Source: a candidate division WOR-1 bacterium RIFOXYB2_FULL_36_35 (GTDB taxonomy: Bacteria; Margulisbacteria; WOR-1; XYC2-FULL-46-14; XYC2-FULL-37-10). From it: a DNA stretch of 53,766 bases. Below the pieces are notes generated by a model. That model saw only the letters and a list, made by a program, of their open reading frames with translations, did no database searches and was not told where the DNA came from. The stretch lies in contig MEUA01000018.1 of assembly GCA_001771505.1 (NCBI GenBank), forward strand, positions 1-53,766, given 5' to 3'. The first letter of the stretch is position 1; every line of letters begins with the position of its first letter. The position numbers and the translations under genes are program-made. Shown one piece after another: positions 4,952 to 53,370 of the stretch.

Positions 4952-7226
<2,275 letters not shown>

Positions 7227-7260: not shown

Positions 7261-8046
7261 ATGAAAGTTGTTATTTTATGCGGTGGTCAGGGGATGAGGC
7301 TTAGAGAAGAGACCGAATATAGACCAAAGCCTCTTATTCCTGTTGGAGGTATGCCGATTTTATGGCATATAATGAAAATTTATTCATATTATGGTCATAA
7401 AGATTTTATTCTTTGTTTAGGCTATAAAGGTGACATGATAAAAGATTATTTTCTCAATTTTGAAGAGTTGATGAATGATTTTACTTTGAATTTAAGATCG
7501 AAAAAAGAGAGAATTATTCATCATAATAATTCAGCCCTTGAAGATTGGAATATAACGTTTGTAAATACGGGGCCTAAAGCGCAGACCGGAAGCCGTGTTG
7601 CCCAGATTAAACAATTTCTTGAGGATGAGGAAGAATTTTTGCTAACTTATGGAGATGGCTTAGCACAGATAAATATTGATACATTATTAGCCTTTCATAG
7701 AAAACATGGGAAGATAGGGACAATAACCGGTGTAAGCCCGCCATCAAGATTTGGTGAGATATCGTCGGACAATGATAAAATTGTTGGGTTTAATGAAAAG
7801 CCAAAAGTTTCAAATCGCCATATTAACGGCGGTTTTTTTGTTTTTAAAAAAGAGCTTTTTAATTATTTATCTTCTGATTGCAACTGTATCTTAGAAGACA
7901 AGCCTTTGGAAGAATTGGCAAAAAATAAAGAGCTTATGATGTTTTCTCATGAGGGATTTTGGCAATGTATGGATACTTACAGAGATCTTGTATTGCTAAA
8001 TGATATGTGGAACTGCAACGAGGCTTTATGGAAGGTTTGGGATTAA
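7261..8046 (+). CDS. rfbF: glucose-1-phosphate cytidylyltransferase
   Basis: This enzyme joins glucose-1-phosphate and CTP to make CDP-glucose, the entry to CDP-dideoxy sugars. The N-terminal nucleotidyltransferase signature VVILCGGQGMRLREET and the following RPKPLIPVGGMPILWH are diagnostic. LTYGDGLAQINI carries the metal-binding Asp, and the C-terminal MDTYRD matches the family. I chose ATG 7261 because AGGAGG at 7246-7251 sits 9 bases upstream; an in-frame TTG at 7252 directly abuts the Shine-Dalgarno. The protein is then 261 residues, near the family norm. It follows rfbH by 34 bases. Confidence 0.94.
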   Translation: MKVVILCGGQGMRLREETEYRPKPLIPVGGMPILWHIMKIYSYYGHKDFILCLGYKGDMIKDYFLNFEELMNDFTLNLRSKKERIIHHNNSALEDWNITFVNTGPKAQTGSRVAQIKQFLEDEEEFLLTYGDGLAQINIDTLLAFHRKHGKIGTITGVSPPSRFGEISSDNDKIVGFNEKPKVSNRHINGGFFVFKKELFNYLSSDCNCILEDKPLEELAKNKELMMFSHEGFWQCMDTYRDLVLLNDMWNCNEALWKVWD

Positions 8047-8049
8047 TTA

Positions 8050-8091
8050 TTAACCCCGATTATCATAATCGGGGTTAATAATCGGGGTTAA
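8050..8091. repeat. short CCCCGATTAT palindromic element
   Basis: TTAACCCCGATTAT (8050-8063), a single C, and ATAATCGGGGTTAA (8065-8078) form a perfect 29-base palindrome. A further half-site, AATAATCGGGGTTAA (8077-8091), follows. The same palindrome-plus-half-site layout occurs at 51134-51188. It begins 4 bases after the rfbF stop and could fold into a strong hairpin in the transcript. Confidence 0.9.
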
Positions 8092-8114: not shown

Positions 8115-9623
8115 ATGAAAAATAATTTGTTTGATAAATTGTTTATTTTTGAAATGGCTAATAATCATATGGGAGATGTTGAGCATGGTTTGAAGATAAT
8201 AAAAGAGATAAAAAATGTAACCCAAGATTTTGATTTTCAGTTTGCGTTCAAGTTCCAATATCGCAATCTTGATTCTTTTATTCATCCTGATTACAAAGAG
8301 AGGAAAGATATTAAATATGTTAAACGATTTAGTGAAACAAGACTTAGTGAGTCTGATTTTTTACGCTTAAAAGAAGCTGTTGTGAACGCCGGCTTTATTA
8401 CAATTTGTACCCCATTTGATGAAGCATCTGTTGATTTGATTAAGAAGCATGGTTATGAAATTGTTAAAATAGCCAGTTGTTCTTTTACCGATTGGCCTCT
8501 CTTGGAAAGGATTGCGGGTACAGATAAGCCTATTATTGCATCAACAGCTGGCGCTTCACTGGAAAACATCGATAAAGTTGTTTCATTCTTCGAACACCGG
8601 AAAAAACAATTTGCCCTAATGCATTGTGTTGCGGCTTATCCCACACCGGACAAAGATATTGAGCTTAACCAGATAGATTTGTTTCAAGCTAGATACCCTG
8701 GAGTTGTTATCGGTTACTCAACCCATGAAGGGCCTCAGAATTTTGATGCTGTTAAAATAGCTATTGCTAAAGGGGCAAAAATTCTTGAGAGACATGTTGC
8801 TCTTTCTACAGATAAGTATCCAATCAATGGATATTCCAGCGCTCCTTCTCAAGTTAAAGAGTGGCTTTCTGCTGCGAAAAAAGCATATGAGATGTGCGGG
8901 GTTTCCGGCAAGAGATTGCAGTTTACTCCTGATGAAATTTCAAGCTTAAGGGCTTTGGGTCGGGGTCTTTTTGCAAAAAGAGAAATTAAAAAGGGGGAAC
9001 AGATTAATTCAGATGACCTGTTTTTTGCTATTCCGACAGTTGAAGATCAAATTACGGCGAATGATTTTTCAAAGTATATCGATTATTCTGTCAAACAGGA
9101 TATACATGTAAATCAGCCTATCCTTTTTTCTTCTGTCAGTCAGATTGATAATCGTGAAAAGATATATAAAATTGTTAAATTGGTAAAAAAGGTTTTGCAG
9201 GATGGACATATCAATGTCCCGGGGATGCTTGATCTTGAAATTTCCCATCATTATGGGGTTGACCGTTTTCATGAGGCGGGATGTACACTTATTAACTTTA
9301 TTAACAGGGAATATTGTAAAAAGCTTATAGTGTTGGTTCCGGGGCAAAGCCATCCCGAGCAGTATCATCAAAAGAAAGAGGAAACTTTCCATGTTTTACA
9401 TGGTGATGTCGATTTTGTCTTAGATGATAAAAAGTTTACCGGTAAACCAGGTGATATTGTTGTTGTGGAGAGAGGGATGAGGCATATTTTCAGCAGTAAG
9501 ACAGGGGCTGTGATTGAAGAGATATCATCTACCCATTATAAAGATGATTCTTTTTATACCGATCCTGATATTGCCAAAAACAAGCAGAGAAAGACGACTA
9601 TTACTTACTGGATGGATGTTTAA
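8115..9623 (+). CDS. NeuB-family synthase fused to SAF and cupin domains
   Basis: The 502-residue protein has three parts. The first 240 or so residues are a NeuB-type TIM barrel, the fold that condenses an N-acylated hexose with phosphoenolpyruvate (TPFDEAS, KIASCSFTDWPLL, HCVAAYPTP, GYSTHEGP, ERHVAL). Next is a SAF/antifreeze-like domain at about 275-345 (ALGRGLFAKREIKKGEQI). The C-terminus is a metal-binding cupin (HPEQYHQKKEETFHVLHGD) of the kind related to sugar-isomerase cupins. The fusion suggests that one polypeptide both prepares and condenses its sugar, but the substrate is unknown. No NeuA or NeuC homologue is seen. Start ATG 8115 has GGAGG 7 bases upstream. Confidence 0.85.
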   Translation: MKNNLFDKLFIFEMANNHMGDVEHGLKIIKEIKNVTQDFDFQFAFKFQYRNLDSFIHPDYKERKDIKYVKRFSETRLSESDFLRLKEAVVNAGFITICTPFDEASVDLIKKHGYEIVKIASCSFTDWPLLERIAGTDKPIIASTAGASLENIDKVVSFFEHRKKQFALMHCVAAYPTPDKDIELNQIDLFQARYPGVVIGYSTHEGPQNFDAVKIAIAKGAKILERHVALSTDKYPINGYSSAPSQVKEWLSAAKKAYEMCGVSGKRLQFTPDEISSLRALGRGLFAKREIKKGEQINSDDLFFAIPTVEDQITANDFSKYIDYSVKQDIHVNQPILFSSVSQIDNREKIYKIVKLVKKVLQDGHINVPGMLDLEISHHYGVDRFHEAGCTLINFINREYCKKLIVLVPGQSHPEQYHQKKEETFHVLHGDVDFVLDDKKFTGKPGDIVVVERGMRHIFSSKTGAVIEEISSTHYKDDSFYTDPDIAKNKQRKTTITYWMDV

Positions 9624-10195
9624 TGAAAACTATTGCTTGGGATGTTGATGACGTATTAAATGATTTAATGCGGGTCTGGTTTGAAAAAAAATGGAAGGTA
9701 GACCATCCGGAATGTAAGCTTAGTTATAAAGATATTAGAGAGAATCCGCCTTATAAGCTTTTGGGCGCTACCTTGGAAGAATATCAAAATTCCTTGGATG
9801 AATTTAGGGGTTCTCATTTATTTGCCGAGATGCTTCCTGTAAAAGAGAGTATGAATTGGTTAAAAGAAAACGGAAGTAATTTTCGGCATATTGCGCTGAC
9901 CGCTGTCCCTCTTGCTTGTGCTTCTGTTTCTGCTGGTTGGGTTTTTAAATATTTCGGAGAATGGATAAGGACATTTCATTTTGTCCCATCTAAAAGAAAA
10001 GATAAGAGACATCTCAGATATGATGATAATAAAGGTGATTTCTTAAAATGGATAAAAAAAGTTGATATAATAGTAGAAGATAATCTTGAAAATATTCGAT
10101 TGGCGAAAGAAGTGGGAGTTAAAACAGTTGTTATTCCAAGACCATGGAATAGCGAGAAGAAATCTATTAAAGAGGTTTTATTTTCAATTTTATGA
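9623..10195 (+). CDS. HAD-superfamily phosphatase-like protein
   Basis: The 190-residue protein opens with the HAD nucleophile motif, here WDVDDVLND (Asp7 and Asp9 by count), and ends with a matching IIVEDNLENI metal-binding motif after a conserved-looking basic segment (SKRKDKRHL). It would hydrolyse a small phosphate ester. Because it sits between the NeuB-cupin fusion and a TPP enzyme, a sugar-phosphate intermediate is the likely substrate, similar to the 9-phosphate phosphatase of nonulosonic acid pathways, by inference. Its ATG overlaps the preceding stop (TAATG) and its stop overlaps the next start. Confidence 0.7.
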   Translation: MKTIAWDVDDVLNDLMRVWFEKKWKVDHPECKLSYKDIRENPPYKLLGATLEEYQNSLDEFRGSHLFAEMLPVKESMNWLKENGSNFRHIALTAVPLACASVSAGWVFKYFGEWIRTFHFVPSKRKDKRHLRYDDNKGDFLKWIKKVDIIVEDNLENIRLAKEVGVKTVVIPRPWNSEKKSIKEVLFSIL

Positions 10196-11994
10196 TTAAA
10201 CTATCAGATTATGTAATAAAGTTTATTGCCGATCTTAAAGTAAAGCATATTTTTATCCTCCCCGGTGGGGGGTGTATGCATCTTGTTGATTCTATTGGTA
10301 AAAATAAGAATATAGAATTTATTGGATGCTTGCATGAACAGGCGGCTGCTGTTGCCGCGGATGGATATGCTCAATATAACGGGAATATTGGTGTTGCTCT
10401 TGTAACGACAGGGCCTGGCGGTACCAATGCTATAACAGGTGTTGCCGCGTCTTGGATTGATTCTACACCTCTTTTAGTATTGTCCGGACAGACTAAGAGA
10501 TCGGATCTTCTTAAGGGGCGGGGAGTTCGCCAAATGGGAATTCAAGAGGTGGATATTGTCTCTATAGTAAAGCCTATTACAAAATATGCTGTTACTGTTT
10601 TAGATCCGGGGAAGATAAGATATTATTTGGAAAAAGCTGTCTATACGGCACAAAATGACCGTCCAGGCCCTGTTTGGCTGGATATTCCCCTTGATGTTCA
10701 AGGTGCTATGATTGATGAAAATAATATTGAAGGATTTATCCCTCCTAAGGAATCAGAAAAAAATATTTCTAGCCAATTAGTAAAACAAGTTATTACCTTT
10801 TTAAATGATTCAAAAAGACCGGTTATTCTTGCTGGACGAGGGATACGTCTCGGAAAAGCTAATGCAGAGTTTTTAAAAGTAATTGAGATGTTAAAAATAC
10901 CGGTTCTTACCACGTGGAGATTGATGGATATATTGCCCGAGGAGCATGAACTGTTTTTTGGACGTCCCGGATCTATTGCTTCAAGATATGCTAATTTTGT
11001 ACAACAAAATGCAGATTTTATATTAGTGCTTGGCGCTCGTTTGGATTTACCTCAGGTGGGACATAATTATCCTAATTTTGCTTCTCATGCTAAAAAAGTT
11101 ATGGTTGATATAGATGAAAATGAAATAAAAAAGGTTGATACAAAAATTGATATTCCTATTGTGGCTGATATTAAAGCCTTTTTGGAAAAATTTATCCAAA
11201 AATTAGATGAAGTTGAACAAATCGACAGATCGAGCTGGATTGTAAAGTGTAAGGAGTGGAAAGATAAATATCCGATTGCCTTAAAAGAATATTTTGAGTT
11301 GAAAAATTTTGTAAACACCTATGCTCTAATAGATACCCTTTCGAACTTAATGAATTCAGATGATTTGCTTGTTCCTGAAAGTTCAGGAAGCGCTGCTGAA
11401 ATAACACCTCAGGCGTTTAAAGTAAAACAAGGACAAAGGATTTTAAATTCTCCGGGACTTGGGTCTATGGGGTTTGGTATTCCTCAGAGTATTGGAGCTT
11501 GTCTTGCAAGCGGAAAGAAGAGAACTGTTTGTATAATTGGTGATGGAGGATTACAGCACAATATTCAAGAATTTGAGACATTAAAAAGATTAGAGCTTCC
11601 CATAAAAGTTTTTGTTTTAAATAATAATGGATATGCCGCTATAAGAAATACGCATAGTAAATTTTTTGAAGGGCGTTTAGTCTGTTGTGATCCCTCAAGC
11701 GGGCTTACCTTTCCTGATACTTGCAAGGTTGCTTCTGCGTATGGATTACAGACAATGAGGATTTCCAGCCAGAAGCATTTAAGAGAAGATGTCCAAAACG
11801 TGCTTAATATGGAAGGGACAGTTATTTGTGAAGTTATGGTTGATCCTGATTTGCAGATGGCTCCCAAGTTGGCATCAAAAGCAATGCCTGACGGCAGAAT
11901 GGTATCAAGACCTCTTGAAGATTTATGGCCATTTTTGGATGAAGAAGAACAAAAAAACAATATGATTGTAGAGTCTGATTTTAACAAAGAATAA
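10192..11994 (+). CDS. thiamine-diphosphate enzyme of the acetolactate-synthase-like family
   Basis: The 600-residue protein has the three-domain build of acetohydroxyacid synthase. The N-terminal PYR domain has the catalytic Glu49 in CLHEQAAA and the TTGPGGTNAITG motif. The middle domain carries PVILAGRGIR. The C-terminal PP domain has the ThDP/Mg motif GDGGLQHN...LNNNGYAA. AHAS-like enzymes in polysaccharide loci are not for valine synthesis; YerE of the yersiniose pathway adds a two-carbon unit from pyruvate to C4 of a CDP-dideoxyketosugar. With RfbF and RfbH just upstream, a YerE-like role is a reasoned guess. It overlaps the genes on both sides. Confidence 0.82.
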   Translation: MIKLSDYVIKFIADLKVKHIFILPGGGCMHLVDSIGKNKNIEFIGCLHEQAAAVAADGYAQYNGNIGVALVTTGPGGTNAITGVAASWIDSTPLLVLSGQTKRSDLLKGRGVRQMGIQEVDIVSIVKPITKYAVTVLDPGKIRYYLEKAVYTAQNDRPGPVWLDIPLDVQGAMIDENNIEGFIPPKESEKNISSQLVKQVITFLNDSKRPVILAGRGIRLGKANAEFLKVIEMLKIPVLTTWRLMDILPEEHELFFGRPGSIASRYANFVQQNADFILVLGARLDLPQVGHNYPNFASHAKKVMVDIDENEIKKVDTKIDIPIVADIKAFLEKFIQKLDEVEQIDRSSWIVKCKEWKDKYPIALKEYFELKNFVNTYALIDTLSNLMNSDDLLVPESSGSAAEITPQAFKVKQGQRILNSPGLGSMGFGIPQSIGACLASGKKRTVCIIGDGGLQHNIQEFETLKRLELPIKVFVLNNNGYAAIRNTHSKFFEGRLVCCDPSSGLTFPDTCKVASAYGLQTMRISSQKHLREDVQNVLNMEGTVICEVMVDPDLQMAPKLASKAMPDGRMVSRPLEDLWPFLDEEEQKNNMIVESDFNKE

Positions 11995-12857
11995 TGAAAA
12001 AGATATTAATAACAGGTGGATATGGGTTTATTGCGAAAAACTTACTTGAACAATTAGGAGAAGAATATAATATCTTTTCTTATAATAGACAACAGCTTGA
12101 TCTTTTAGATTCATCTAAAGTTTTGGCTGTTATAAAAAAATCAAAATTTGATGTAATAATACACACTGCTACTTATGATGCCGCACCAAAACATTCTAAA
12201 AAAGATCCCTCAAAAGTTTTGGAAAATAACTTAAGGATGTTTTTTAACATAGTAAGATGTAAAGATTATTTTGGGAAAATGATTTATTTCGGATCCGGCG
12301 CAGAATATAGCCGTGAACATTGGAAGCCTAAGATGAAAGAAGCTTATTTTGACAAACATGTGCCTTCAGATCAATATGGGTATTCAAAATATCTTATGAG
12401 TAAATATGTAGAATTGAACAACAATTTATATAATTTAAGGCTTTTTGCTGTTTTTGGCAAGTATGAAGATTGGCGTGTACGTGTTATTTCCAGCATTTGC
12501 AGGGATGCAGTTTTAGATTTACCTATTATCATAAACCAGAACAAATATTATGATTTTATGTATATTGATGATCTTATTAAAATTATTAAATGGTTCATTG
12601 AAAATAAACCTCTTCACAAGATACACAATATTTGTTCGGGAAATGTCATAGATTTTAAAACAATAGCTCAAAAAGTTTGCAAAATATCAGGCAAAAAGCT
12701 AAAGATAGTGATTAAAGAGCGAAAACTTGGAAAAGAGTATAGTGGAGATAATTTATTGTTGTTATCTGAAATTAAAAGATCTGATTTTACTTTGATGGAT
12801 AAAGCTCTTGAAAAATTATATCGTTTTTATGATACAAATAGGAGTCTTTTAGAATGA
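11994..12857 (+). CDS. SDR-type NAD(P)-dependent sugar epimerase/reductase
   Basis: A short-chain dehydrogenase of the extended type, 287 residues. It has a glycine-rich GGYGFIAKN at 7-15 and an active-site pair in DQYGYSKYLMSK; its SGAEYS strand stands where others have SSxxVYG. It most resembles sugar-nucleotide 4-ketoreductases. In a yersiniose-like pathway a reductase must act on the new side chain, and this protein or the next one could do so, by inference. The ATG shares a base with the preceding stop and its own end overlaps the next gene by 4 bases. Confidence 0.72.
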   Translation: MKKILITGGYGFIAKNLLEQLGEEYNIFSYNRQQLDLLDSSKVLAVIKKSKFDVIIHTATYDAAPKHSKKDPSKVLENNLRMFFNIVRCKDYFGKMIYFGSGAEYSREHWKPKMKEAYFDKHVPSDQYGYSKYLMSKYVELNNNLYNLRLFAVFGKYEDWRVRVISSICRDAVLDLPIIINQNKYYDFMYIDDLIKIIKWFIENKPLHKIHNICSGNVIDFKTIAQKVCKISGKKLKIVIKERKLGKEYSGDNLLLLSEIKRSDFTLMDKALEKLYRFYDTNRSLLE

Positions 12858-13912
12858 CAAATTTCATGAACAAGATTATTGCAAAAGATTTGGATTTTAT
12901 TGTAAACAGTAATATTATCGATTGGAAAAAGTTTAGAGACAAAACTTTTTTAATAACCGGCGCTTACGGAATGCTTTTATCATATATGGCATATGTTTTA
13001 TTATGGTTAAATAAAAAAGATCCTTCTTTTAACATAAAAGTTATTGCTTTAGTGCGTAATAAAGAAAAGGCGAAACAAAGATTTAAAGATTTTATAAACA
13101 GCAAAGATTTAAAGATTTTTGAACATGATCTATCTTCTTCGATTGATATTTCAGACGACATAGATTTTATTGTTCATGGTGCAAGTTATGCGAGTCCGCA
13201 TTATTTTAAAACAAAGCCTGTTGATGTCCTTTTGCCGAATGTTATAGGAACGTATAATTTGCTTGAGCTTGCAAAAGCCAAGAAGGTTGAAGGTTTTCTG
13301 TTTTTTAGCAGCGGAGCTGTTTATGGGAAGAATGCAACTGAAGTTGTGACAGAGAATGATTATGGTTTTTTAAATCCTCTTGATATGGTAAGTTGTTATA
13401 GTGAGAGTAAAAGAATGGCTGAAAATATGTGCAAATGTTGGCATGACCAGTTTGGTCTTCCTGTTAAAATCGTAAGACCGGCTCATATATACGGACCTAC
13501 CATGGATATAGATAATGACAGCAGAGTCTTTGCTAGTTTTGTAAGGAACATTGTCAAAAAGGAAAACATTGTAATGAAAAGCAATGGTTCTGCTTGGAGA
13601 TCCTTTTGTTACATCGCTGATGCTACTGTGGCTTTTTTCAAGGTTCTATTTGATGGCGCAGGAGGGGAAGCATACAATATAGGCAATGACAATGCTTATA
13701 TGTCTGTGAAAAAACTTGCGGAAATATTTATTTCAACTTTTAAAGACAATAAGTTAAGCCTTATCATGCAGAATGATAATACTGTTATTGATAAGCGGGA
13801 AAATAAAATGTTAATGTCCTCAAAAAAAATTGAGCGACTTGGATGGCAATGTTTTTTTCCCATCCCTGAGGGGCTTAAGCGTACAGTAGAAAGTTTTTTG
13901 TCTGATTGTTAG
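12854..13912 (+). CDS. SDR-type nucleotide-sugar epimerase/dehydratase
   Basis: The 352-residue protein has an N-terminal extension of about 30 residues before its Rossmann motif (FLITGAYGMLLSYM). FFSSGAVYG and SCYSESKRMAE provide the Ser and Tyr-xxx-Lys of the active site. This style, with a Cys before the catalytic Tyr, recalls UDP-glucuronate decarboxylase relatives. The Asp-Glu pair that marks 4,6-dehydratases after the Ser is absent, so it is a poor candidate for the missing CDP-glucose dehydratase. It is coupled to the previous gene by ATGA. Confidence 0.72.
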   Translation: MTNFMNKIIAKDLDFIVNSNIIDWKKFRDKTFLITGAYGMLLSYMAYVLLWLNKKDPSFNIKVIALVRNKEKAKQRFKDFINSKDLKIFEHDLSSSIDISDDIDFIVHGASYASPHYFKTKPVDVLLPNVIGTYNLLELAKAKKVEGFLFFSSGAVYGKNATEVVTENDYGFLNPLDMVSCYSESKRMAENMCKCWHDQFGLPVKIVRPAHIYGPTMDIDNDSRVFASFVRNIVKKENIVMKSNGSAWRSFCYIADATVAFFKVLFDGAGGEAYNIGNDNAYMSVKKLAEIFISTFKDNKLSLIMQNDNTVIDKRENKMLMSSKKIERLGWQCFFPIPEGLKRTVESFLSDC

Positions 13913-13926: not shown

Positions 13927-14865
13927 TTGTTCTTAGAAAAAAAAGAAGAATATATTAAAGGAAAAATCGATAAAAATAAATATATGGAAGAGATGTTTAA
14001 ATCTCATAGACATCTTTTTGAATATCCTCTTTTAATAAAAGATTCTCCTATAGAAAAAATAGAAATAACACAAGATCAGGTAGTATTTATGATTCAGGGA
14101 GCAAACAAAGATATAAAAATTTGCTGTGATAAAAACGATTCACATTCTCTTCCGATGTCATATCTTAATTTTTCAGCATATGAAACAGTTGAAACTAACA
14201 TGATACTTAGACTTGTTAAAGAAGGGGATGTTGTTTTCGATATCGGCGCCAATATAGGCTGGTACACACTCAATATCCTTTTTTCTCATAATGATATAGT
14301 TGTATATTCTTTTGAGCCTATAAAATCATCATATCAGCTTTTAAAAAAGAATCTTGAGCTTAATAATCAGAGGGCGGATCGGACATACAACTTTGGGTTG
14401 TCAGATGAAAACAAAAAAGTTAAATTTTACTTTGATATGGAATGTACGGCTGCTTCATCTATGGCAGATCTCAGGGAGAGAGGGTCGACAATTATGGAAG
14501 AATGCGAAGTTAAAAAAATGGATGATTTTATATTGTCGATATCAGGTTTCAATAAACTCGATTTTATTAAATGTGATGTGGAAGGTTCGGAGCTTTTTGT
14601 TTTTAAAGGGGCGATTGAGACTATAAAGAGATATAAACCTATTGTATTTTCTGAAATATTAAGGAAATGGTCCAAGAAATTTAGTTATCATCCTAATGAT
14701 ATTATTAATTTATTTTTAGACCTTGATTATGACTGTTATGTTATTAATAATGATAAGCTTGAAAAGTTTGGATATGTTGACGAAGCAACAATCCAGACAA
14801 ATTATCTTTTTTTTCATAAAGATAAACATGCAGAGGTTGTTAGGAAGTTACTTTTGTTGTCTTGA
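13927..14865 (+). CDS. FkbM-family methyltransferase
   Basis: This SAM-dependent methyltransferase probably O-methylates a sugar of the glycan. The SAM-binding motif I is VVFDIGANIGWYTLNIL, followed by the acidic FEP strand and later FIKCDVEGSE, which are typical FkbM signatures. I place the start at TTG 13927, with AGGAGG at 13911-13916 ending 10 bases upstream; an earlier TTG at 13906 would leave no binding site. The protein then has 312 residues. The first 70 residues form a separate lead-in region of unknown role. Confidence 0.82.
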   Translation: MFLEKKEEYIKGKIDKNKYMEEMFKSHRHLFEYPLLIKDSPIEKIEITQDQVVFMIQGANKDIKICCDKNDSHSLPMSYLNFSAYETVETNMILRLVKEGDVVFDIGANIGWYTLNILFSHNDIVVYSFEPIKSSYQLLKKNLELNNQRADRTYNFGLSDENKKVKFYFDMECTAASSMADLRERGSTIMEECEVKKMDDFILSISGFNKLDFIKCDVEGSELFVFKGAIETIKRYKPIVFSEILRKWSKKFSYHPNDIINLFLDLDYDCYVINNDKLEKFGYVDEATIQTNYLFFHKDKHAEVVRKLLLLS

Positions 14866-14951: not shown

Positions 14952-15446
14952 ATGAATATACACGAAGCAATTAAATATTTAGAAAAAGAGATACCTGATC
15001 CTTCAAAGGGGTTGGCTGAGGAGCTCTTTTCCTTCTTCTCCAAAATAGTTCCGATGGTAAATGTTGACCTTCTTATAAAAGATGAAAAGGGGAGAACCCT
15101 TTTATCGTGGAGGGATGATCCTATTCATGGAAAAGGTTGGCATATACCCGGTGGAATTATAAGATTCAAAGAGACCCTTGAAAACAGAATCCTAAAAGTT
15201 GCAGAGACAGAAATTGGAGCTAAGATTGAATTTGATCCTGTTCCTATTACAATTAAGCAGATTATAAGTGAAAAGAGGACATTACGGGGGCATTTTATCT
15301 CTATATTGTATAAGTGTTTTCTTTCAGGCGAATATCTCCTTGAAAATAAAGGGTTATCGATAAATGACGCGGGGTATCTTTTGTGGCACGATGTTTGTCC
15401 CAAAAATCTGATAAAAGTACATGAGACATATAGGGAGTACATATAG
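14952..15446 (+). CDS. Nudix hydrolase, GDP-mannose mannosyl hydrolase-like
   Basis: The 164-residue protein has the Nudix region HIPGGIIRFKETLENRIL followed by KVAETEIGA. The box departs from GX5EX7REUXEEXGU in the REUXEE part, keeping only some acidic residues. The same kind of departure marks GDP-mannose mannosyl hydrolases (NudD/Gmm), which cleave GDP-sugars to the free sugar and GDP. That substrate suits a locus with GDP-mannose and GDP-fucose genes. No clear Shine-Dalgarno precedes the ATG, and a REP-like repeat occupies the gap upstream. Confidence 0.78.
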   Translation: MNIHEAIKYLEKEIPDPSKGLAEELFSFFSKIVPMVNVDLLIKDEKGRTLLSWRDDPIHGKGWHIPGGIIRFKETLENRILKVAETEIGAKIEFDPVPITIKQIISEKRTLRGHFISILYKCFLSGEYLLENKGLSINDAGYLLWHDVCPKNLIKVHETYREYI

Positions 15447-15451
15447 ATATT

Positions 15452-16591
15452 ATGACAAAGAGAAATAACTGCAGAGTATGTGGTAATAAATTTTTTAAAG
15501 AGCCACTCCTTCAATATAAGAACATGCCAAAGGGGGCTCAATTTTTGCCTGGGACAAACGATCTCAAAGATGAGTTCGGGGTAAATCTTGATATTTATCA
15601 ATGCTCAGGTTGTGGTTTGGTCCAATTAGATTGTGAGCCTGTCTTTTATTATAAAGATGTTATCCGCGCTGCCGCCTTTTCGGATGAAATGAAAACCTTT
15701 AGACTTCAGCAGTTTGATTCTTTTGTAAAAAAGTATTCTTTGCGAGGGAAAAAGGTTGTTGAAATTGGTTGTGGCGCTGGAGAGTATCTTTCTCTTATGA
15801 AAGAGTGTAATGTTACAGCTTATGGGTTAGAGCATTTAAGTGAATCTGTTACAAAATGTATAAAAAAAGGGCTAACTGTTTCTGAGGGATTTATTGATAA
15901 TGAAGTATATTTCATAAAAAATACCCCATTTGCTGCTTTTTATATACTTAATTTTTTTGAACATCTTCCTGATCCAAATTCAATACTTAAAGGGATCTAT
16001 AATAACTTGGAACAAGGTGGTGTAGGTCTTGTTGAGGTTCCAAACTTTGACATGATCTTAAGGAAAAAACTTTTTTCCGAGTTTATACCAGACCACCTTT
16101 TTTATTTTACCAAAGAGACTTTGAGTCTTGCATTAAATCTTAATGGTTTTGATATTCTTGAGTGTAATGAGATTTGGTACGATTACATAATTTCTGCAGT
16201 TGTAAAAAAACGTGGCAAAATAAATATATCTCCGTTCTATAAATATCAGGAAAGCTTGAAAGCTGAAATAGAAAAATATATTGATCAGTTTGGGCATAAA
16301 AATGTAGCTATTTGGGGGGCAGGACATCAGGCCCTTGCAATTATTTCTATGACTAATATTTCTGATAAAATTAGATATGTTGTTGATTCTGCTACATTTA
16401 AACAGGGTAAATATACCCCGGCGACACATCTTCCTATTGTTTCTCCTGATGTGCTTCAAGCTGATCCTGTAAAAGCAATAATAGTTATGGCCGCAAGTTA
16501 TTCTGATGAGGTTGCAAAGCTTATAAAAAATAAGTTTGGCATAAATATTAATATTGCGATATTAAGAGATTTTGGATTGGAGGTTTTTTAA
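15452..16591 (+). CDS. three-domain sugar C-methyltransferase-like protein
   Basis: The 379-residue protein has an N-terminal zinc-binding domain with two Cys-x-x-Cys pairs (CRVCG and CSGCG). A central SAM-binding domain (VVEIGCGAGEYLSLM) follows, then a C-terminal domain that starts with a nucleotide-binding-like VAIWGAGHQALAI. This arrangement is that of TylC3/NovU-type methyltransferases, which add a methyl group to a sugar carbon. It would produce a branched deoxysugar, consistent with the CDP-deoxysugar genes upstream. It starts 5 bases after the Nudix stop. Confidence 0.82.
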   Translation: MTKRNNCRVCGNKFFKEPLLQYKNMPKGAQFLPGTNDLKDEFGVNLDIYQCSGCGLVQLDCEPVFYYKDVIRAAAFSDEMKTFRLQQFDSFVKKYSLRGKKVVEIGCGAGEYLSLMKECNVTAYGLEHLSESVTKCIKKGLTVSEGFIDNEVYFIKNTPFAAFYILNFFEHLPDPNSILKGIYNNLEQGGVGLVEVPNFDMILRKKLFSEFIPDHLFYFTKETLSLALNLNGFDILECNEIWYDYIISAVVKKRGKINISPFYKYQESLKAEIEKYIDQFGHKNVAIWGAGHQALAIISMTNISDKIRYVVDSATFKQGKYTPATHLPIVSPDVLQADPVKAIIVMAASYSDEVAKLIKNKFGININIAILRDFGLEVF

Positions 16592-16606
16592 CGTTATTAA
16601 ATGGGT

Positions 16607-16612
16607 TATAAT
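16607..16612 (+). promoter_or_regulatory. -10 element before the radical SAM gene
   Basis: TATAAT at 16607-16612 lies 8 bases before ATG 16621. Transcription from it would begin almost at that start codon, giving a leaderless message. No convincing -35 is visible. Confidence 0.4.
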
Positions 16613-16620
16613 TAAATAAA

Positions 16621-17733
16621 ATGGGGGTACTTATTATGTCAAATCAACCAGAACAATTAAAACCTACTGAAACAGATAAAAGAAATCAGCTTAAAAAGGA
16701 GAAACCTTATGTTTATGAAAAAATAATGAAGTATGATGATAAGCTTAAGAATGGAGAAAGCATTGCCATATTGCAATTTCAATATGATTATACATGTAAC
16801 TTTGCTTGTCAGCACTGTGATATAACACGATTGCGAGGGAAAAATCCGAACAGATATTTTACAATTAATGATGTTAAAGAGCTTTCAAGACAGGCAGATG
16901 AAATGGGACTAGCTCATATAGTAATTACAGGAGGCGAGCCGCTCATTTTCCCTGATTTTGATGATATTGTTAAAGCTATTGATCCTCAGAAATTTTATAT
17001 ATCCTCAGATACTAACGGTTGGAATTTGGATTATGAAAGAGCAAAACATATTAAAAGTATAGGTGTCGATAAAATTCAACTGAGCCTTGATAGCCTTTCA
17101 GTAACAGAACATGATGAATTTAGACGCAAACCTGGATCGCATGAAAAGTGTTTAATAGCAATTGATGCGGCGCTTGATGCAGGACTAAACATTATAGTCC
17201 AGACTGTAGTTACAAAACAGCGAATCAGGTCTGAAGAATTTATTAATTTTCTGGAGTTTTTAAACGGGAAAGGGGTTGGGGTGTTTGTAACTTATGCTAA
17301 GCCTGTCGGGGAATGGGAAGGCAAATATGACATTCTGATAAATAAGGATGATATGGACTACATGCGGGGACTTGAAAAGAAATATAATGTTTTTACTCAC
17401 TTAACACCTTCTTATGGACTTGATATAGGTTGTATTGCTGTTAAAAGAATGGTTTCAATCACAAAATATGGAGATGTAATGCCATGCCCTTATATACATG
17501 TTTCACTTGGAAACTTTTTTGAAGAGCCGTTGAAAGATATTATTGAAAGAGGTTTAGATATTAAGTTTTTCGGTAAATATTGTGATACGTGTTTTATAGC
17601 TGAAGATAGAGATTTTATTGAAAACTATGAGGCCAAGAAGGTATATGGGAAACCTCTTCCTGTACCTTATAATAAAGTTTTTACTAAAGAAGATTTTATT
17701 AGCAAAAAAGATCGACAATTACATCGGGGATAA
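16621..17733 (+). CDS. radical SAM enzyme with SPASM/twitch-like C-terminus
   Basis: The 370-residue protein binds a [4Fe-4S] cluster through Cys59-X3-Cys63-X2-Cys66 (YTCNFACQHCD). The ITGGEP motif for SAM follows. Further Cys residues near the C-terminus (IGCIAVK, MPCPYIHVSLGN, YCDTC) form a SPASM- or twitch-type auxiliary-cluster site. Its neighbours suggest modification of a sugar or glycan, but peptide modification cannot be excluded. A second possible start lies at ATG 16636, with GGGG upstream. Confidence 0.8.
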   Translation: MGVLIMSNQPEQLKPTETDKRNQLKKEKPYVYEKIMKYDDKLKNGESIAILQFQYDYTCNFACQHCDITRLRGKNPNRYFTINDVKELSRQADEMGLAHIVITGGEPLIFPDFDDIVKAIDPQKFYISSDTNGWNLDYERAKHIKSIGVDKIQLSLDSLSVTEHDEFRRKPGSHEKCLIAIDAALDAGLNIIVQTVVTKQRIRSEEFINFLEFLNGKGVGVFVTYAKPVGEWEGKYDILINKDDMDYMRGLEKKYNVFTHLTPSYGLDIGCIAVKRMVSITKYGDVMPCPYIHVSLGNFFEEPLKDIIERGLDIKFFGKYCDTCFIAEDRDFIENYEAKKVYGKPLPVPYNKVFTKEDFISKKDRQLHRG

Positions 17734-24698: not shown

Positions 24699-25658
24699 AT
24701 GTATGACTTAACAATTGCTATCCCAACCATAGGACGTAGTGAACATCTTGAAAAGATGTTAAATAAGCTTATTCCGGCTTGTTATGGTAACAACATAGAG
24801 GTATTAGTGTCAGACAATGCTTCCGTTGACGGAACAAAGGCCCTTCTTAATAATTTTAAAAAGCAAGCTTTCTTTAGATCATTACGTAGTGAAAATCATC
24901 TTAGTTTCGATGAAAACGTATTAAAACTTTTAGGTGAAGTCAGGGGGAAATTTGTCTGGTTACTTGGGGATGATGATGATATTGATTTTTTGTTTTTTGA
25001 TCAAATTATCGATTTAGTGAGAGAGAGAAGTGATATCGGAATCTTTTTTCTGTCATTTATCTATCCCCATAAAAATGCGCATAAAAAAGAGGAGAATAGT
25101 TTAAAGATAGAGGAAATATCTTCTCGAGAGTATTTGGATGTATATTTGCATAAGGCTACTCTTATCTCTTCGAATATTATTAACATGAAGTATTTTTACG
25201 ATATTAAACTTAATTCCGAGACCATTTCCAAAGAATGGATACAGGTGCAAATATTAATAAAAATCTTAGAATTATTAAACAGGCATAAAAAAAATGTTTT
25301 GATAGTTAAAACCGAAGTTATATTTCCCGCTGTCGGGAACACTAACTATTCTTTTAAAAAATTTTGGAGTACCTTTGTGGATCAATTTTCTTTTGTTGTT
25401 GATCGATCTTCCCAAAGCTTAGATCTTGTCCGTTTTAAAAAGAATTTTTATCGATTAAATCTTCGAAGACGGTTTTTAACTATTGGAAGGGATTTTTGTT
25501 GGGCAAGGGTTTTCCCTATTTACAAGTTTGTTGCAGTTTATTTTTATATTTCACTTTACGATAAGATTTTATTTTGGTTATCTTTTATCATTTTTAGGGT
25601 TTTTAGTTATTCGTCCTTGAAAAAGATGAAAGACTTTGTGCTTAGGGAGAGAAAATGA
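24699..25658 (+). CDS. family 2 glycosyltransferase
   Basis: A 319-residue GT-A transferase. TIAIPTIGRSEHLEKML, DNASVDGT and LLGDDDDIDF are the expected donor and metal sites, although the first strand is less typical than in the neighbouring paralogues. The C-terminal region has a hydrophobic helix pair (VYFYISLYDKILFWLSFIIF), so it probably sits at the inner membrane. It overlaps the next gene by 4 bases. Confidence 0.82.
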   Translation: MYDLTIAIPTIGRSEHLEKMLNKLIPACYGNNIEVLVSDNASVDGTKALLNNFKKQAFFRSLRSENHLSFDENVLKLLGEVRGKFVWLLGDDDDIDFLFFDQIIDLVRERSDIGIFFLSFIYPHKNAHKKEENSLKIEEISSREYLDVYLHKATLISSNIINMKYFYDIKLNSETISKEWIQVQILIKILELLNRHKKNVLIVKTEVIFPAVGNTNYSFKKFWSTFVDQFSFVVDRSSQSLDLVRFKKNFYRLNLRRRFLTIGRDFCWARVFPIYKFVAVYFYISLYDKILFWLSFIIFRVFSYSSLKKMKDFVLRERK

Positions 25659-26881
25659 AACGACTAATTTCTTTTTTATTGCATATGTTTTTTCCTGTTC
25701 GGTCAGGTTTTGATAAATCAAAAATCAAAAGTATTGTTGTTTTACAGTTTGGACATATCGGGGATATAGTTCTTTCTTTTCCTTTTCTTAAGGAGCTGCG
25801 TAAAATATTTCCCCATGCCAAAATAACTTTTGTATGCGGAGACTGGGGGGGGGATTTTGTTACGATTAATAAGAATATTGATGAAATAATAATCTTTGAT
25901 CATCCATGGCAAATAAGAAAAGAACAAAATTTTTTTACGGCCGCAAGAGCAACTTTCAGTTTTTTAAAAGTTTTAAGGCATAAAAAGTTTGATTTAGCGG
26001 TTGATCTAAAAGGGAATCTAAATAGTGCTTTAATTAATCTTTTTTCCGGGAGCAGATTCAAAATAGGTCGTGATTTTGGAGGGTATGATTTCCCTTACAG
26101 CTATGTATCAGGAGCTTATGATGATTATGAGGCATTGAATTTGTTAGCTTTATTGGAAAAGATTAAACCTCGATTATGCATAGACGAACAGAATTCTAGC
26201 AGAGTGTTGGAAATTTCCCCAGGTATGAATCCCGATTTCCTAATCGGGGTGAATAATCGGGGTAAAGGGTCAAAAATTGATTTTCCTGGATATGAGTTTC
26301 CTGTTCCAGAAAAGGAGTTAAGAACAATCACAAACAAACTGTTAAAATCAAATATTAATCGTTTTGTTGTAATTCACCCTACAACTTTATGGAAACCCAG
26401 AAATTGGGGAATAAATAATTATAAAAAATTGATTGAGAAAATGTTGGATAATATAAATAATTTAACAGTTATCATCATAGGTAGTAATGCTGAGATAGAA
26501 GAAAATAATAAGTTGATAGCGACTGATCCTAAACGCGTAAGAAATTTTTCAGGTGAGCTGAGTTTGATTGAAACAGCTGCTTTAATAAGTAGAGCCGATT
26601 TATTCATCGGCAGTGATAGCGGGCCTGCACATTTGGCGGCAGCTATTGGAAGCAAGCTAGTTGTATTAATGGGGCCCGGAGAATATCCAAGGTTTGCCCC
26701 TTATAATCCTTTTAATATGCCTAAGATAATCAGGCATGAAACGTGTGAATATCAGACAAATAACAATTGTAAACAGAAATATGGCGTTGATAAATGTGCA
26801 AAAGAAAATAATGTTTGCATGGACTCTATCAAGGTAGATGAAGTTTTTACTGTTGTGAAAGGCTTATTATCATGCAGATAA
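25655..26881 (+). CDS. family 9 (heptosyltransferase-like) glycosyltransferase with an in-frame palindromic insert
   Basis: A GT-B transferase of the LPS heptosyltransferase family, 408 residues. The N-domain starts IVVLQFGHIGDIVLSFPFL. The C-domain has FVVIHPTTLWKPRNW, FSGELSLIETAALI and GSDSGPAHLAAAIG, the usual donor site. Residues 172-204 are encoded by a 102-base repeat (26166-26267) with a near-identical copy in the htrA-like gene. This segment (LCIDEQNSSRVLEIS and onward) falls in the linker between the two Rossmann domains and keeps the reading frame. Without it the length would be close to typical. The enzyme is probably still active, as both domains are intact. Confidence 0.88.
   Translation: MKRLISFLLHMFFPVRSGFDKSKIKSIVVLQFGHIGDIVLSFPFLKELRKIFPHAKITFVCGDWGGDFVTINKNIDEIIIFDHPWQIRKEQNFFTAARATFSFLKVLRHKKFDLAVDLKGNLNSALINLFSGSRFKIGRDFGGYDFPYSYVSGAYDDYEALNLLALLEKIKPRLCIDEQNSSRVLEISPGMNPDFLIGVNNRGKGSKIDFPGYEFPVPEKELRTITNKLLKSNINRFVVIHPTTLWKPRNWGINNYKKLIEKMLDNINNLTVIIIGSNAEIEENNKLIATDPKRVRNFSGELSLIETAALISRADLFIGSDSGPAHLAAAIGSKLVVLMGPGEYPRFAPYNPFNMPKIIRHETCEYQTNNNCKQKYGVDKCAKENNVCMDSIKVDEVFTVVKGLLSCR
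26166..26267 (+). repeat. long palindromic element, copy 1, inside the GT9 gene
   Basis: The layout is: a 5' half-site (ACCTCGATTAT, one change from ACCCCGATTAT), a unique stretch of about 50 bases containing GACGAACAGAATT, the small palindrome CCCGATTTCCTAATCGGGG, then the 3' half-site GAATAATCGGGGT. The core 26167-26263 is 97 bases. It is nearly identical to 42592-42693 in the same orientation and resembles 53269-53370 in the opposite one. It is translated as part of the GT9 protein. Confidence 0.95.
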
Positions 26882-28337: not shown

Positions 28338-29867
28338 ATGAGCCAAAAAGCAAAAGTTTTATATTTTTCTTTTTATGCAGTAATAATTGGATATTTGATT
28401 TTTATCCATTATTTTTCTTATAAAATATCAATTGATGCTGCTATTTTTAATAATATTTTATTTAATTCGTTACATGGGAATATAGGTTTTTCTTCTATAG
28501 AAGGGATAAACCATTTTTCTATGCACTTTTCCCCGTTTCTTTTGATTCTTTTGCCCTTCTATCCTTTATTATCAAATTATACTCTAATCATTGCATCATA
28601 TTTATCATTTTTATTTTCTGTAATAGGTGTTTATTTTATAGTAAATCAAGTTTCAAAAAATGGTAAACTCTCATTTTTGATTGGCTTGACATTTATTTGT
28701 TATGCTCCGTTTTTGCATAATATAGTTTGGGATTTTCATGAAATAATTTTAGCATTGCCATTTTTTGTTTTCTCGTTTTATCTTCTTATGAAAAATAAAG
28801 TATGGTTATCTCTGTTTTTATTTATGTTTACATTCTTAATCAAAGAAGAAACTTTTTTACTTGGTATCGCTTTTGGTTTGTATATGTTTTTCTTCCATAG
28901 AAAAAAACAGGGTTTATGGCTTGTTGTGTTTTCTGTTTTAGGGTTTATTCTTGTTGTTAAGTTTATTATGCCGGTTTTATTTGGTGGGGGACAAAGCAAT
29001 CTCCTTTGGGAAAGATATGATTATTTAGGATCAAGTTTATCTGTGATCTTAACCAAAATCCTCAGGGAACCTTTTTCTGTTTTTTTTCCGCCTTTTTATA
29101 TGAGAAAATTAATTGCTTTAATTTGTTTGTTTTTACCATTATTCTTTTTGCCTTTTATGAGTTTATCTGTTTTATTTATACCCCTGGTTACTATTGCATA
29201 CTCATATTTTTCTAAACTACCTCAATTGGACTACGCAGATCATTATGCCCTGCCTGTTATTCCATATATTTTTATTGCTTATATATTTGCCATGGAAAAG
29301 TTGAACATTTTTTTGAAAAACAAGAAACTAATAATATATGGCTTAACTTTTTTTGTTTTAATTTTTAACATGATTTTCTCCTTATTTTCATTTTATATGA
29401 GGGGTTCTTATGAAAGATTAAAGCCTTTGGACAATAAAAAGGCCTTTTTTAGCGTTGTAAAATTAATTCCTTATGATGCGTCTGTTTTAACTCATTCGAT
29501 ATCAAGCTTTTACTGTTCTGACAGAAAGAACATATATGTTACTTACAATTTTAACCCTGCTGATGTTGCAAAGTATGATCCGGATTATATACTGATTAAT
29601 TTTAGAGTTGTTTTTTATGATGGAGGAGAGAGAACTAATGAATTAGATAAGCGCGCAAATAATTTGAAAAAAATAGTATTTAACAGTAAATATAAGCCAA
29701 TATTTTTCGAGAACGATGTTCTTTTGTTAAGCAGACAAACCTTAAGTAATAATGATATGAAATCAAATTTATCTCTATTTAAGGAATATGATTTTAATAA
29801 ATACAAAAACTCAAATTATTTAAACTTTGTACCTGGCTTTATAAAGCAGATTGCTACAAAACAATGA
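28338..29867 (+). CDS. DUF2079-type membrane protein (probable GT-C fold)
   Basis: The 509-residue protein has about ten membrane helices. The first loop has ISIDAAIFNNILFNSLHG and then HFSMHFSPFLLILLPFYPL, which is the recognisable DUF2079 pattern, related to polyprenyl-phosphate-dependent glycosyltransferases. A soluble C-terminal region of about 120 residues follows. A role in adding a sugar on the periplasmic side is the likely reading. It begins 5 bases after the previous stop. Confidence 0.75.
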   Translation: MSQKAKVLYFSFYAVIIGYLIFIHYFSYKISIDAAIFNNILFNSLHGNIGFSSIEGINHFSMHFSPFLLILLPFYPLLSNYTLIIASYLSFLFSVIGVYFIVNQVSKNGKLSFLIGLTFICYAPFLHNIVWDFHEIILALPFFVFSFYLLMKNKVWLSLFLFMFTFLIKEETFLLGIAFGLYMFFFHRKKQGLWLVVFSVLGFILVVKFIMPVLFGGGQSNLLWERYDYLGSSLSVILTKILREPFSVFFPPFYMRKLIALICLFLPLFFLPFMSLSVLFIPLVTIAYSYFSKLPQLDYADHYALPVIPYIFIAYIFAMEKLNIFLKNKKLIIYGLTFFVLIFNMIFSLFSFYMRGSYERLKPLDNKKAFFSVVKLIPYDASVLTHSISSFYCSDRKNIYVTYNFNPADVAKYDPDYILINFRVVFYDGGERTNELDKRANNLKKIVFNSKYKPIFFENDVLLLSRQTLSNNDMKSNLSLFKEYDFNKYKNSNYLNFVPGFIKQIATKQ

Positions 29868-29883
29868 TTTTGGAGAGAGATAT

Positions 29884-31023
29884 ATGAGAATAGGAATTGA
29901 CGCAAGGCCTTTATCTTCACAAAGATCAGGGATCGGAAGATATTTGTATGGTTTAATTAACGCTTTAGAAGAGATTGATAAACAAAATGAGTATTTTTTA
30001 TATTCTCATAAGGAGTTTTCTCTTCCTTTTAAAAATTTGCGTTGGCATAAAAGAGTCGGAAGCAAGTTCTTTTCAAAAATTGGTACATTATATTTATTGT
30101 TAGCAATGCCTCGACAAATTAAAAAAGATCAAATTGATGTTTTTTGGGGGACGCAAAATATTTTGCCGTTTTTCTTGCCGTGTAAAAAAATTTTGACTGT
30201 TCATGATTTTGTTTGGCGCTTTTTTCCTAAGACTATGACTTTTTATAACTTATATGTGAATAGATTATTTGCCGGAAAATCCATACAAATATCGGATTGT
30301 TTTATGGCTGTTTCCCAATCTACTGCAGATGATCTTATCAGATTATTTAATATCAAAAGAGATTGTATTTCGGTAGTTCATAATGGAATTGAATTATCTT
30401 TTGGCGCTACCAGGAGGAGGAACTTAATCGAAGGTAAATTTAATATTTCTTGTAAATATATATTAACAGTTGGCACTATTGAACCAAGGAAGAATATTAT
30501 TTCATTGGTAAAAGCCTTTAAAAAATATCAGGAAAGAGTTGATTCTGAGGTTCAGCTTGTTGTTGTAGGCGCCAGAGGTTGGGCTAATTCGTCACTTTTC
30601 GACACAATAAGAAAATTTAATTTTAAGGATGACGCCATAAGATTTTTAGGACACATTTCAGATGATGACCTAAAAAGACTTTATTCTTCTGCAGAAGTAT
30701 TTGTTTTTCCATCGCTTTATGAAGGATTTGGATTTCCTCCACTTGAGGCTATGGCTTGCGGTTGTCCGGTGATTGTTTCAAATACTTCTTCAATGCCCGA
30801 GGTTTGTGGAGATGCGGCTTTCTACATCAATCCTTATGATATAGAAAATATTGTTAATGCTTTAAATTCAGTACTATCAAATCAAAATTTAAGAAATTTA
30901 TTAATAGAAAAAGGCCTTAATAGGGTAAAGCTTTTTACCTGGGAAGAATCAGCGCAAAAAGTTTTGGATTTGTTTAATTCTGTGCATAATTTGCCCAAAG
31001 TAGATGAGTTAGTTAATACATGA
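29884..31023 (+). CDS. family 4 glycosyltransferase
   Basis: A retaining GT-B transferase of 379 residues with start ATG 29884 (GGAGAGAG just upstream; an in-frame ATG at 29851 is inside the previous gene). [19 protein letters not shown] is the N-terminal acceptor-side motif. The C-domain has [12 protein letters not shown], and [25 protein letters not shown] contains the E-X7-E donor-binding motif. It resembles mannosyl- and rhamnosyltransferases of polysaccharide loci. It overlaps the next gene by 4 bases. Confidence 0.9.
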
Positions 31024-32084
31024 ATAAGATCTTATTAATTAAATTAGGAAGCTTAGGAGATGTTTTACTTACTACTCCTCTGATAACTGTATTAAAAAAA
31101 AATGAACCTTTGATTGAAATTGATTATCTTACCTCCTGTCCCCAAGTTTTGCAGAATAATCCTTTTACTAATAAAATTATTAAAATAGATCCTATTTTAA
31201 CCTCAAAAAATTTATTCTTAGAAATTTTTAAGATAATAAAACTATTTATCATGCTTTTTAAATTTAGAAAAAAATATAGTTCTGTTTTTATTTTTCATAG
31301 ATCGGGGCTTTTAAACATTATTCTAAGACTGATTTTTGGAAATATAATATATTCTTATTCTCTTTCTCCTTTTTTAAACATTTTTCTGAAAAAACACGTT
31401 TTATTTGACCTAAAACAACATAGAATATTAAGATCTTTTGAACTTATTAAATTAGAATTTTCTAATCTAAGGTGGAAAGAAAAAGATTTAAAGTTGATTT
31501 TTGAACCTCAGAATAAAGAAGATTTTTTAAATATTAAGGATTTTTATGTGGTAATTGCTCCTGGAGGAGGGAATAATCTCTGGTCGCAGATGGAAACCCG
31601 TAAATGGCCAATTGAAAACTATGCAGAGCTAACAGGAAGAATAATAGTCGAATTAAAAACTACTGTTGTTATGCTTGGTGACAAAAATGATCTTCAATAT
31701 GCCAAACAGATTGCTTCTGCGGTCAATTCAGAAAGATTTATAAGCCTGACAGGCAAAACTTCAATAAATCAAAGCGCTTTGATTCTAAAAAGAGCCAAAT
31801 TGTTTATTGGGAATGATTCTTTCCCTCTTTTTTTAGCGTCGGCTGTTGATATTCCTACGATTGGCTTGTTTGGTCCCACGAATGCAGAATTGATTAATCC
31901 TTTTTTAGACAAACATATAGCTGTCCAATCTACATTAGATTGTTCTCCTTGTTACAATCCTGTTGATGGGGTAAAGGGGTGTGCGTATGTATGTGAACAA
32001 GGCAAATGTATGATGGCTATTTCAGTAGATTCTGTTTTTGGTAAGGTGAAAGATATTTTTTCTGTTATAAAGGAGGATTCTTGA
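31020..32084 (+). CDS. family 9 (heptosyltransferase-like) glycosyltransferase
   Basis: The second GT9 protein of the locus, 354 residues. ILLIKLGSLGDVLLTTPL starts the N-domain. FYVVIAPGGGNN, SLTGKTSINQSALIL and FIGNDSFPLFLASAVDIPTIGLFG form the donor site. The C-terminal Cys-rich tail (CSPCYNPVDGVKGCAYVCEQGKC) is common in this family. Its interdomain linker lacks the repeat-derived insert seen in the GT9 paralogue at 25655. Confidence 0.9.
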   Translation: MNKILLIKLGSLGDVLLTTPLITVLKKNEPLIEIDYLTSCPQVLQNNPFTNKIIKIDPILTSKNLFLEIFKIIKLFIMLFKFRKKYSSVFIFHRSGLLNIILRLIFGNIIYSYSLSPFLNIFLKKHVLFDLKQHRILRSFELIKLEFSNLRWKEKDLKLIFEPQNKEDFLNIKDFYVVIAPGGGNNLWSQMETRKWPIENYAELTGRIIVELKTTVVMLGDKNDLQYAKQIASAVNSERFISLTGKTSINQSALILKRAKLFIGNDSFPLFLASAVDIPTIGLFGPTNAELINPFLDKHIAVQSTLDCSPCYNPVDGVKGCAYVCEQGKCMMAISVDSVFGKVKDIFSVIKEDS

Positions 32085-53268: not shown

Positions 53269-53370
53269 AACCCCGATAATTCACCCCGATTAGAAAATCG
53301 GGGTTCATACCTGGGAAAATTTTCAACACTCTGCTAGAATTATGTTAGTCTATGAATAATCGGGGTAAAG
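53269..53370 (-). repeat. long palindromic element, copy 3, in a 5' leader
   Basis: This is 102 bases in the orientation opposite to copies 1 and 2, and more diverged (for example ATTATGTTAGTCTATG in place of ATTCTGTTCGTCTATG). The inner palindrome and both half-sites are preserved. The core 53270-53366 is again 97 bases. The element ends exactly at the base before ATG 53371. Confidence 0.92.

Follow-up and report, generated by a model that had tools for sequence, protein, structure and literature searches.

The window, a 53,766-nt stretch that is the whole of contig C18 in a draft genome of 1.95 Mb and 67 contigs, carries a polysaccharide locus in which genes for an SLBB-repeat export protein, gmd, fcl, RfbH and RfbF lead into a block of five genes, followed by genes for an FkbM methyltransferase, a NUDIX protein, a C-methyltransferase-type protein, a radical SAM protein, an ABC transporter and glycosyltransferases. 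The relevant features are listed below. Counts out of 80 refer throughout to NeuB-cupin loci found by a scan of genome contigs, from which the best 80 of 226 relatives were kept.

5883..7226 (+), RfbH-type CDP-6-deoxy-4-hexulose 3-dehydrase (E1); NF011936 744.5 bits, cut-off 423
7261..8046 (+), RfbF glucose-1-phosphate cytidylyltransferase; TIGR02623 325.6 bits, cut-off 300.25
8052..8076 (no strand), 25-nt palindrome in the RfbF-NeuB gap; the genome has 142 copies
8115..9623 (+), NeuB-SAF-cupin fusion, predicted PEP-condensing 3-deoxy-2-ulosonate synthase; NeuB about 8115-8906, SAF about 8961-9137, D-lyxose-isomerase-like cupin about 9234-9620
9623..10195 (+), HAD-superfamily phosphatase, proposed to act on a sugar phosphate
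10192..11994 (+), YerE-like ThDP carboligase, the proposed decarboxylative coupling enzyme
11994..12857 (+), SDR1, NAD-dependent epimerase/reductase family; PF01370 99.6 bits
12854..13912 (+), SDR2, NAD-dependent epimerase/dehydratase family, Epimerase-type
13928..14865 (+), FkbM-family methyltransferase; PF05050 64.8 bits
14952..15446 (+), NUDIX hydrolase, recurrent tail gene; 32 of the best 80 of 226 loci
15452..16591 (+), zinc-domain C-methyltransferase-type protein (Methyltransf_13/14), tail gene; 36 of the same 80
16621..17733 (+), radical SAM/SPASM protein, tail gene; 32 of the same 80

A sequence-only reading of this DNA had described the five genes at 8115-13912 (+) as overlapping by 1 or 4 bases at every junction, and the gaps are indeed -1, -4, -1 and -4. 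The block is flanked by gaps of 68 nt upstream, where the palindrome lies, and 15 nt downstream. It is tighter than its immediate neighbours, as had been proposed, but not tighter than other parts of the window such as 29851-32081 (gaps -17, -4 and -4); because other runs overlap equally tightly, junction tightness alone is not special. The 4-nt overlaps support cotranscription of the five genes rather than a special unit. A simple terminator scan performed at chance level (8 found, 8.2 expected), a promoter scan was only about 2 standard deviations above it, and the palindrome is probably not module-specific. Domain and structure matches bore out the gene content that had been read (NeuB-SAF-cupin fusion, HAD, TPP enzyme and two SDRs). 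The idea of a conserved five-gene module fared differently: looked for in other genomes, the exact order occurred in 0/80 related loci (best 80 of 226), which rules out the block as the functional unit.

The fusion matches NeuB (PF03102, 147.6 bits), SAF and Cupin_2, and the closest structure to its NeuB barrel and SAF domain is 3g8r (402 bits). The NeuB active-site residues E13, K46, Q48, K118, H204 and H227 are conserved in the 80 genome sequences (best 80 of 226). In Neisseria NeuB, Arg314 contacts the N-acetyl group. We placed its equivalent using the R314A mutant structure 4ipi and found that this position is I, F, M or W in the same 80 sequences, is never Arg in 21 viral fusions, and is Arg in all ordinary NeuB controls with the region aligned (n = 22). 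The fusion also missed the equivalog cut-offs for NeuB (NnaB; 157.5 vs 399.65 bits) and PseI (130.5 vs 340.25 bits), and in a midpoint-rooted tree the NeuB-cupin clade separates from ordinary NeuB with 100/100 support. Another PF03102 match, on contig C17, was rejected as a second NeuB, being DAHP-synthase-like by sequence and position. With the fusion as query, phage and plasmid record collections gave nothing at 1e-30.

The cupin groups with the D-lyxose isomerases by sequence and by AlphaFold2 model (fusion pLDDT 91.5), with a fold match to Bacillus subtilis D-lyxose isomerase 2y0o (2.5e-12, rmsd 2.4). Residues H418, K421, E423 and H457 do not vary across the 80 genome sequences (best 80 of 226), and position 416, the first metal position, is Q or H, with Gln in about half of the sequences. 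The fold and metal residues of a D-lyxose isomerase are thus kept, in agreement with the earlier assignment to a sugar-isomerase type. The HAD protein had no Pfam match; its AlphaFold2 model (pLDDT 96) was matched by Foldseek to 3bwv (1.5e-08), of the HAD 5'(3')-deoxyribonucleotidases, and of its catalytic quartet D7, D9, K137 and D153 are invariant in 28 homologues, with T93 near-invariant.

All three domains of the ThDP enzyme (N, M and C) were matched, and catalytic Glu49 and a GDG motif are present. The protein scores 395.7 bits with 8rph vs 279.6 with the best acetolactate synthase and misses the acetolactate synthase equivalog cut-off (TIGR00118, 389.3 vs 538.35 bits), and of 84 ThDP homologues, 83 resemble JanthE more than either of two acetolactate synthases. 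We take 8rph to be JanthE because it shows the CDG motif reported for JanthE in PMC12247030. By score with JanthE (8rph), on which the name "YerE-like" rests, the enzyme is nearer to JanthE than to acetolactate synthase.

RfbH has the iron-sulphur motif of E1 enzymes, C-X57-C-X-C-X7-C at residue 196, together with the segment [14 protein letters not shown], in which a His stands where related aminotransferases carry the PLP Lys. RfbG has a single true copy in the genome, on contig C10 (480.5 bits, cut-off 278), and the pathway proposed below needs this gene together with RfbF and RfbH just upstream of the block. A genome search for the RfbH partner reductase (E3/DdhD) gave two FAD_binding_6 matches, whose matched parts resemble PyrK and a hydrogenase gamma subunit, and no clear candidate. 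Downstream, SDR1 follows the ThDP gene in 12/80 loci (best 80 of 226), SDR2 has an FkbM methyltransferase as its neighbour in 7 other loci, and neither is a constant partner of NeuB-cupin loci. The NUDIX, C-methyltransferase and radical-SAM tail often accompanies the pathway genes.

Across the best 80 of 226 NeuB-cupin loci, a ThDP gene is found in 76, within 1.5 kb in 69, and the order NeuB-(HAD)-ThDP occurs in 63; RfbH is present in 64, RfbG in 56, RfbF in 54 and HAD in 38, so that HAD is missing from about half. Around ordinary NeuB (n = 22 loci), ThDP, RfbG and RfbH were each found 0 times at comparable scores and RfbF once. Because every locus was picked for its similarity to four ThDP-linked sequences, and because many contigs stop close by, the figures are counts for a chosen set, not natural rates. 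The conserved core is RfbF, RfbG, RfbH, NeuB-cupin, often HAD, and ThDP, and it turns up again across many bacterial phyla and in some viruses. Between-protein identity correlations, uncorrected for the species tree, are no more than suggestive: 0.53 for NeuB with ThDP and 0.61 for NeuB with RfbH, against 0.05 for RfbF with the radical SAM protein.

A scan of viral contigs gave 25 loci with 21 near-full-length fusions. ThDP lies nearby in 13, and one viral contig (L035) carries a T4-type portal and terminase. Genes for CMP-sugar synthetases were compared in all locus sets by a motif whose pattern also covers SpsF-type enzymes. It occurs in 0/13 ThDP-type viral loci; four genome loci matched, and L084 and L119 were judged false by eye, leaving 2/80 (best 80 of 226). 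Eight other viral fusions, 38-40% identical, have no ThDP. Near 6/8 of them lies a gene with the CMP-synthetase motif, which would be expected of a branch whose acid sugar is displayed; two of these were checked and are CTP_transf_3.

The Mycobacterium gastri locus (L085) contains RfbF, a glycosyltransferase, NeuB-SAF-cupin, ThDP, HAD_2, two methyltransferases, an SDR2-like gene, RfbH and RfbG, with the NeuB-cupin and ThDP genes overlapping by 4 nt. According to Gilleron et al., M. gastri reportedly makes a sugar with a 1,3-dimethoxy-4,5,6,7-tetrahydroxyheptyl branch at C4. By analogy, this branch is what a C8 3-deoxy-2-ulosonic acid would give once decarboxylated, ketone-reduced and doubly methylated. 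Paper titles describe the M. gastri sugar as a C4-branched 3,6-dideoxyhexose. According to the review PMC12247030, YerE-like enzymes join alpha-keto acids to CDP-4-keto-3,6-dideoxyglucose; pyruvate is the substrate of YerE, JanthE and MygE take a range of alpha-keto acids, and ErwE and MMAR_2332 prefer hydroxylated ones. The same review assigns MygE to gastriose in M. gastri and reports no ketone activity for it in vitro. From organism and context, we infer that the L085 ThDP gene is mygE. The caryophyllose branch is 1,3,4,5-tetrahydroxyhexyl (PMC5706390), which fits a decarboxylated 3-deoxyulosonic acid, here a C7 acid.

Among 297 Mycobacterium genomes sampled, 5 have a NeuB-cupin at >=85% identity and 2 (G140 and G200) a cupin-less NeuB, which lies inside the NeuB-cupin clade of the same tree (98/91; midpoint root, one long control branch flagged). 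In G140 and G200, RfbF, RfbH and RfbG are 84-92% identical to those of M. gastri, while the ThDP enzyme has 34-35% and NeuB 42-43% identity to the window proteins. With RfbF/H/G constant and both NeuB and ThDP differing, the latter two therefore appear, by sequence, to have been exchanged as a pair while the acceptor genes stayed. Mutants of M. marinum MMAR_2331, MMAR_2332 and MMAR_2333 accumulate a precursor without caryophyllose (PMC5706390), and NeuB, ThDP and GT are consecutive in G140; from position, mutant phenotype and the G140 order, our guess is that MMAR_2331 is a cupin-less NeuB.

We consider it probable that the product of the locus is a C4-branched higher sugar destined for the surface polysaccharide, with a ulosonic acid as the donor intermediate that the ThDP enzyme joins to a CDP-4-ketosugar. 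Families, conserved catalytic residues, linkage and the presence of RfbG were computed; every reaction, substrate and side-chain length is our inference. On the acceptor branch, RfbF, RfbG and RfbH would yield CDP-3,6-dideoxy-4-ketohexose. On the donor branch, the HAD protein may take the phosphate off a ketose phosphate before condensation or off a ulosonate phosphate after it, the cupin would turn a ketose into its aldose and back (xylulose/lyxose or fructose/mannose type), and the NeuB domain of the same protein would join PEP to the aldose, producing a 3-deoxy-2-ulosonic acid. The ThDP enzyme would then decarboxylate this acid, and attack of the resulting acyl anion on C4 of the CDP-4-ketosugar would leave a tertiary alcohol that bears a long polyhydroxy side chain. 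An SDR may afterwards reduce the new ketone, for which SDR1 is proposed, and methyltransferases and other enzymes may trim the branched sugar, O-methylation by the FkbM-family protein being possible. After M. gastri, our best guess is a side chain of seven carbons from a C8 acid. The suggestion that the genes make an unusual acid sugar holds in part: a PEP-condensed acid is the likely NeuB product, but the pathway probably does not stop there, since 76/80 loci (best 80 of 226) also have a YerE-like ThDP enzyme expected to decarboxylate the acid.

A standard nonulosonic-acid route, in which a CMP-sugar synthetase activates the NeuB product as an acidic sugar and ThDP and SDR serve another sugar, would draw on the core fold and PEP residues of the fusion, which are of the sialic/pseudaminic acid synthase type, and on the ThDP-less viral branch with its CMP-synthetase-motif genes. 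That route is nevertheless very unlikely here. NeuA/SpsF-motif genes are all but missing around the genome loci and absent from the ThDP-type viral ones, in line with the non-sialic setting previously suggested for the synthase; no NeuA or NeuC was named among the scanned window proteins, a scan that covered part of the ORFs and agrees with the absence noted earlier; and the fusion lacks the Arg314 equivalent and falls below both equivalog cut-offs. With NeuA lacking, Arg314 replaced and ThDP and RfbFGH linked, we reject the standard sialic-acid route as the main reading. We give equally little credence to two pathways lying side by side, in which ThDP would use pyruvate to attach an acetyl branch of two carbons, as in yersiniose, and what NeuB makes would be used elsewhere. 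The pyruvate use of YerE and the broad acceptance of alpha-keto acids by JanthE and MygE are compatible with it, but NeuB and ThDP adjoin in most loci from many phyla (best 80 of 226), G140 and G200 replace both while keeping RfbF/H/G, and two known relatives, ErwE and MMAR_2332, act on alpha-keto acids that are hydroxylated.

A version compatible with the donor-acid mechanism, and a minor though real prospect, starts from a six-carbon aldose (mannose type), so that the acid would be C9 and the branch eight carbons long, and/or has a cupin that only binds sugar. In its favour, two structures with D-fructose, 7nzp and 3mpb, belong to the matched fold family of D-lyxose isomerases and a related sugar isomerase, and about half of the sequences have Gln at the first metal position; against it stand the seven-carbon branch reported for M. 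gastri gastriose and the invariance of K421, E423, H418 and H457 in the genome sequences (best 80 of 226).

Beyond this locus, we lean, somewhat less firmly, towards a branch of the NeuB family turned donor-maker, in which one polypeptide would generate an aldose and condense it with PEP, and a ThDP enzyme would use up the resulting ulosonic acid, instead of its being displayed, to place a long polyol chain on a CDP-deoxysugar. Clusters that are otherwise conserved would swap donor cassettes (NeuB, whether or not it has a cupin, and the matching ThDP), and the same cassette would be present in at least one T4-like phage. If so, many "N-acetylneuraminate synthase" and "spore coat polysaccharide synthase" lookalikes, across many bacterial phyla and mycobacteria, would be reassigned to branched-sugar synthesis, a source of long alpha-keto acid donors for some YerE-like enzymes would be given, and the substrates and products of these biocatalysts would become directly testable.

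Among known synthases, 3g8r from Chromobacterium violaceum is a close structural match (54% identity). The fusion shares the TIM barrel, SAF domain and active-site Lys, Gln and His with NeuB, PseI and SpsE, but lacks the Arg314 equivalent, adds a C-terminal isomerase cupin and is linked to ThDP, with no NeuA or NeuC partners seen. Its cupin has the fold, HxxKxEE motif and His457 in common with D-lyxose isomerase 2y0o, and differs in being fused to a PEP-condensing synthase and in a first metal residue that varies between Gln and His. The M. gastri locus resembles the window in the 4-nt NeuB-SAF-cupin/ThDP overlap, the HAD gene next to it, and RfbF/G/H and an SDR2-like gene nearby; it differs in a HAD of the HAD_2 family, a glycosyltransferase between RfbF and NeuB, and RfbG and RfbH on the opposite strand. 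With the yersiniose, erwiniose, caryophyllose and gastriose systems the locus shares, by score with JanthE, the ThDP subfamily, and also the RfbF/RfbG/RfbH acceptor route. Long hydroxylated donors are already known for ErwE and MMAR_2332 (PMC12247030); the passages of that review consulted here do not name a NeuB-type synthase as the source of the donor acid or contain the word "neuraminate". What sets the window apart from these YerE-like systems is the proposed origin of its donor acid, a linked PEP synthase of NeuB type that carries a sugar-isomerase cupin in the same chain.

Genes for the NeuB-cupin fusion, the ThDP enzyme, SDR1 and a C-methyltransferase were found on the virus contig of locus L035 and also on those of loci L031, L034, L038, L039 and L041. 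The L035 contig, a 116.8-kb IMG/VR sequence, encodes a T4-type portal and terminase, and we therefore conclude that the cassette is carried by at least one phage. Loci L043-L050 form a separate NeuB-cupin branch on virus contigs that lacks the ThDP gene, and genes with a CMP-sugar-synthetase motif were present in six of these eight loci. Among the best 80 of 226 NeuB-cupin relatives in genome contigs, counterparts of the tail genes (14952-17733) repeatedly accompany the module, namely NUDIX (32/80), C-methyltransferase-type (36/80) and radical SAM (32/80) genes.

The GDG motif of the ThDP enzyme reads SDG, with the first Gly replaced by Ser, in 16 of the 84 homologues compared, a variant that recalls the unusual CDG of the YerE-like enzyme JanthE. 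Another alpha-keto acid donor could be supplied by enzymes such as the following, whose gene is distant from the module:

50178-51122, HMGL-like aldolase, similar to 4-hydroxy-2-oxovalerate aldolases

A 25-nt palindrome at 8052-8076, AACCCCGATT-N5-AATCGGGGTT, has 142 copies (≤2 mismatches) across the 1.95-Mb genome, compared with 0 for the reversed pattern, and looks like a REP-type element. A dispersed repeat of ~111 nt with the same ends occurs at the following positions:

26157-26267, repeat copy
42583-42693, repeat copy
53256-53366, repeat copy

The copy at 26157 lies within a heptosyltransferase-like ORF (25655-26881), which stays unbroken and gains a peptide stretch. In its position inside an ORF, with the frame intact and extra peptide added, this copy resembles the Rickettsia palindromic elements.
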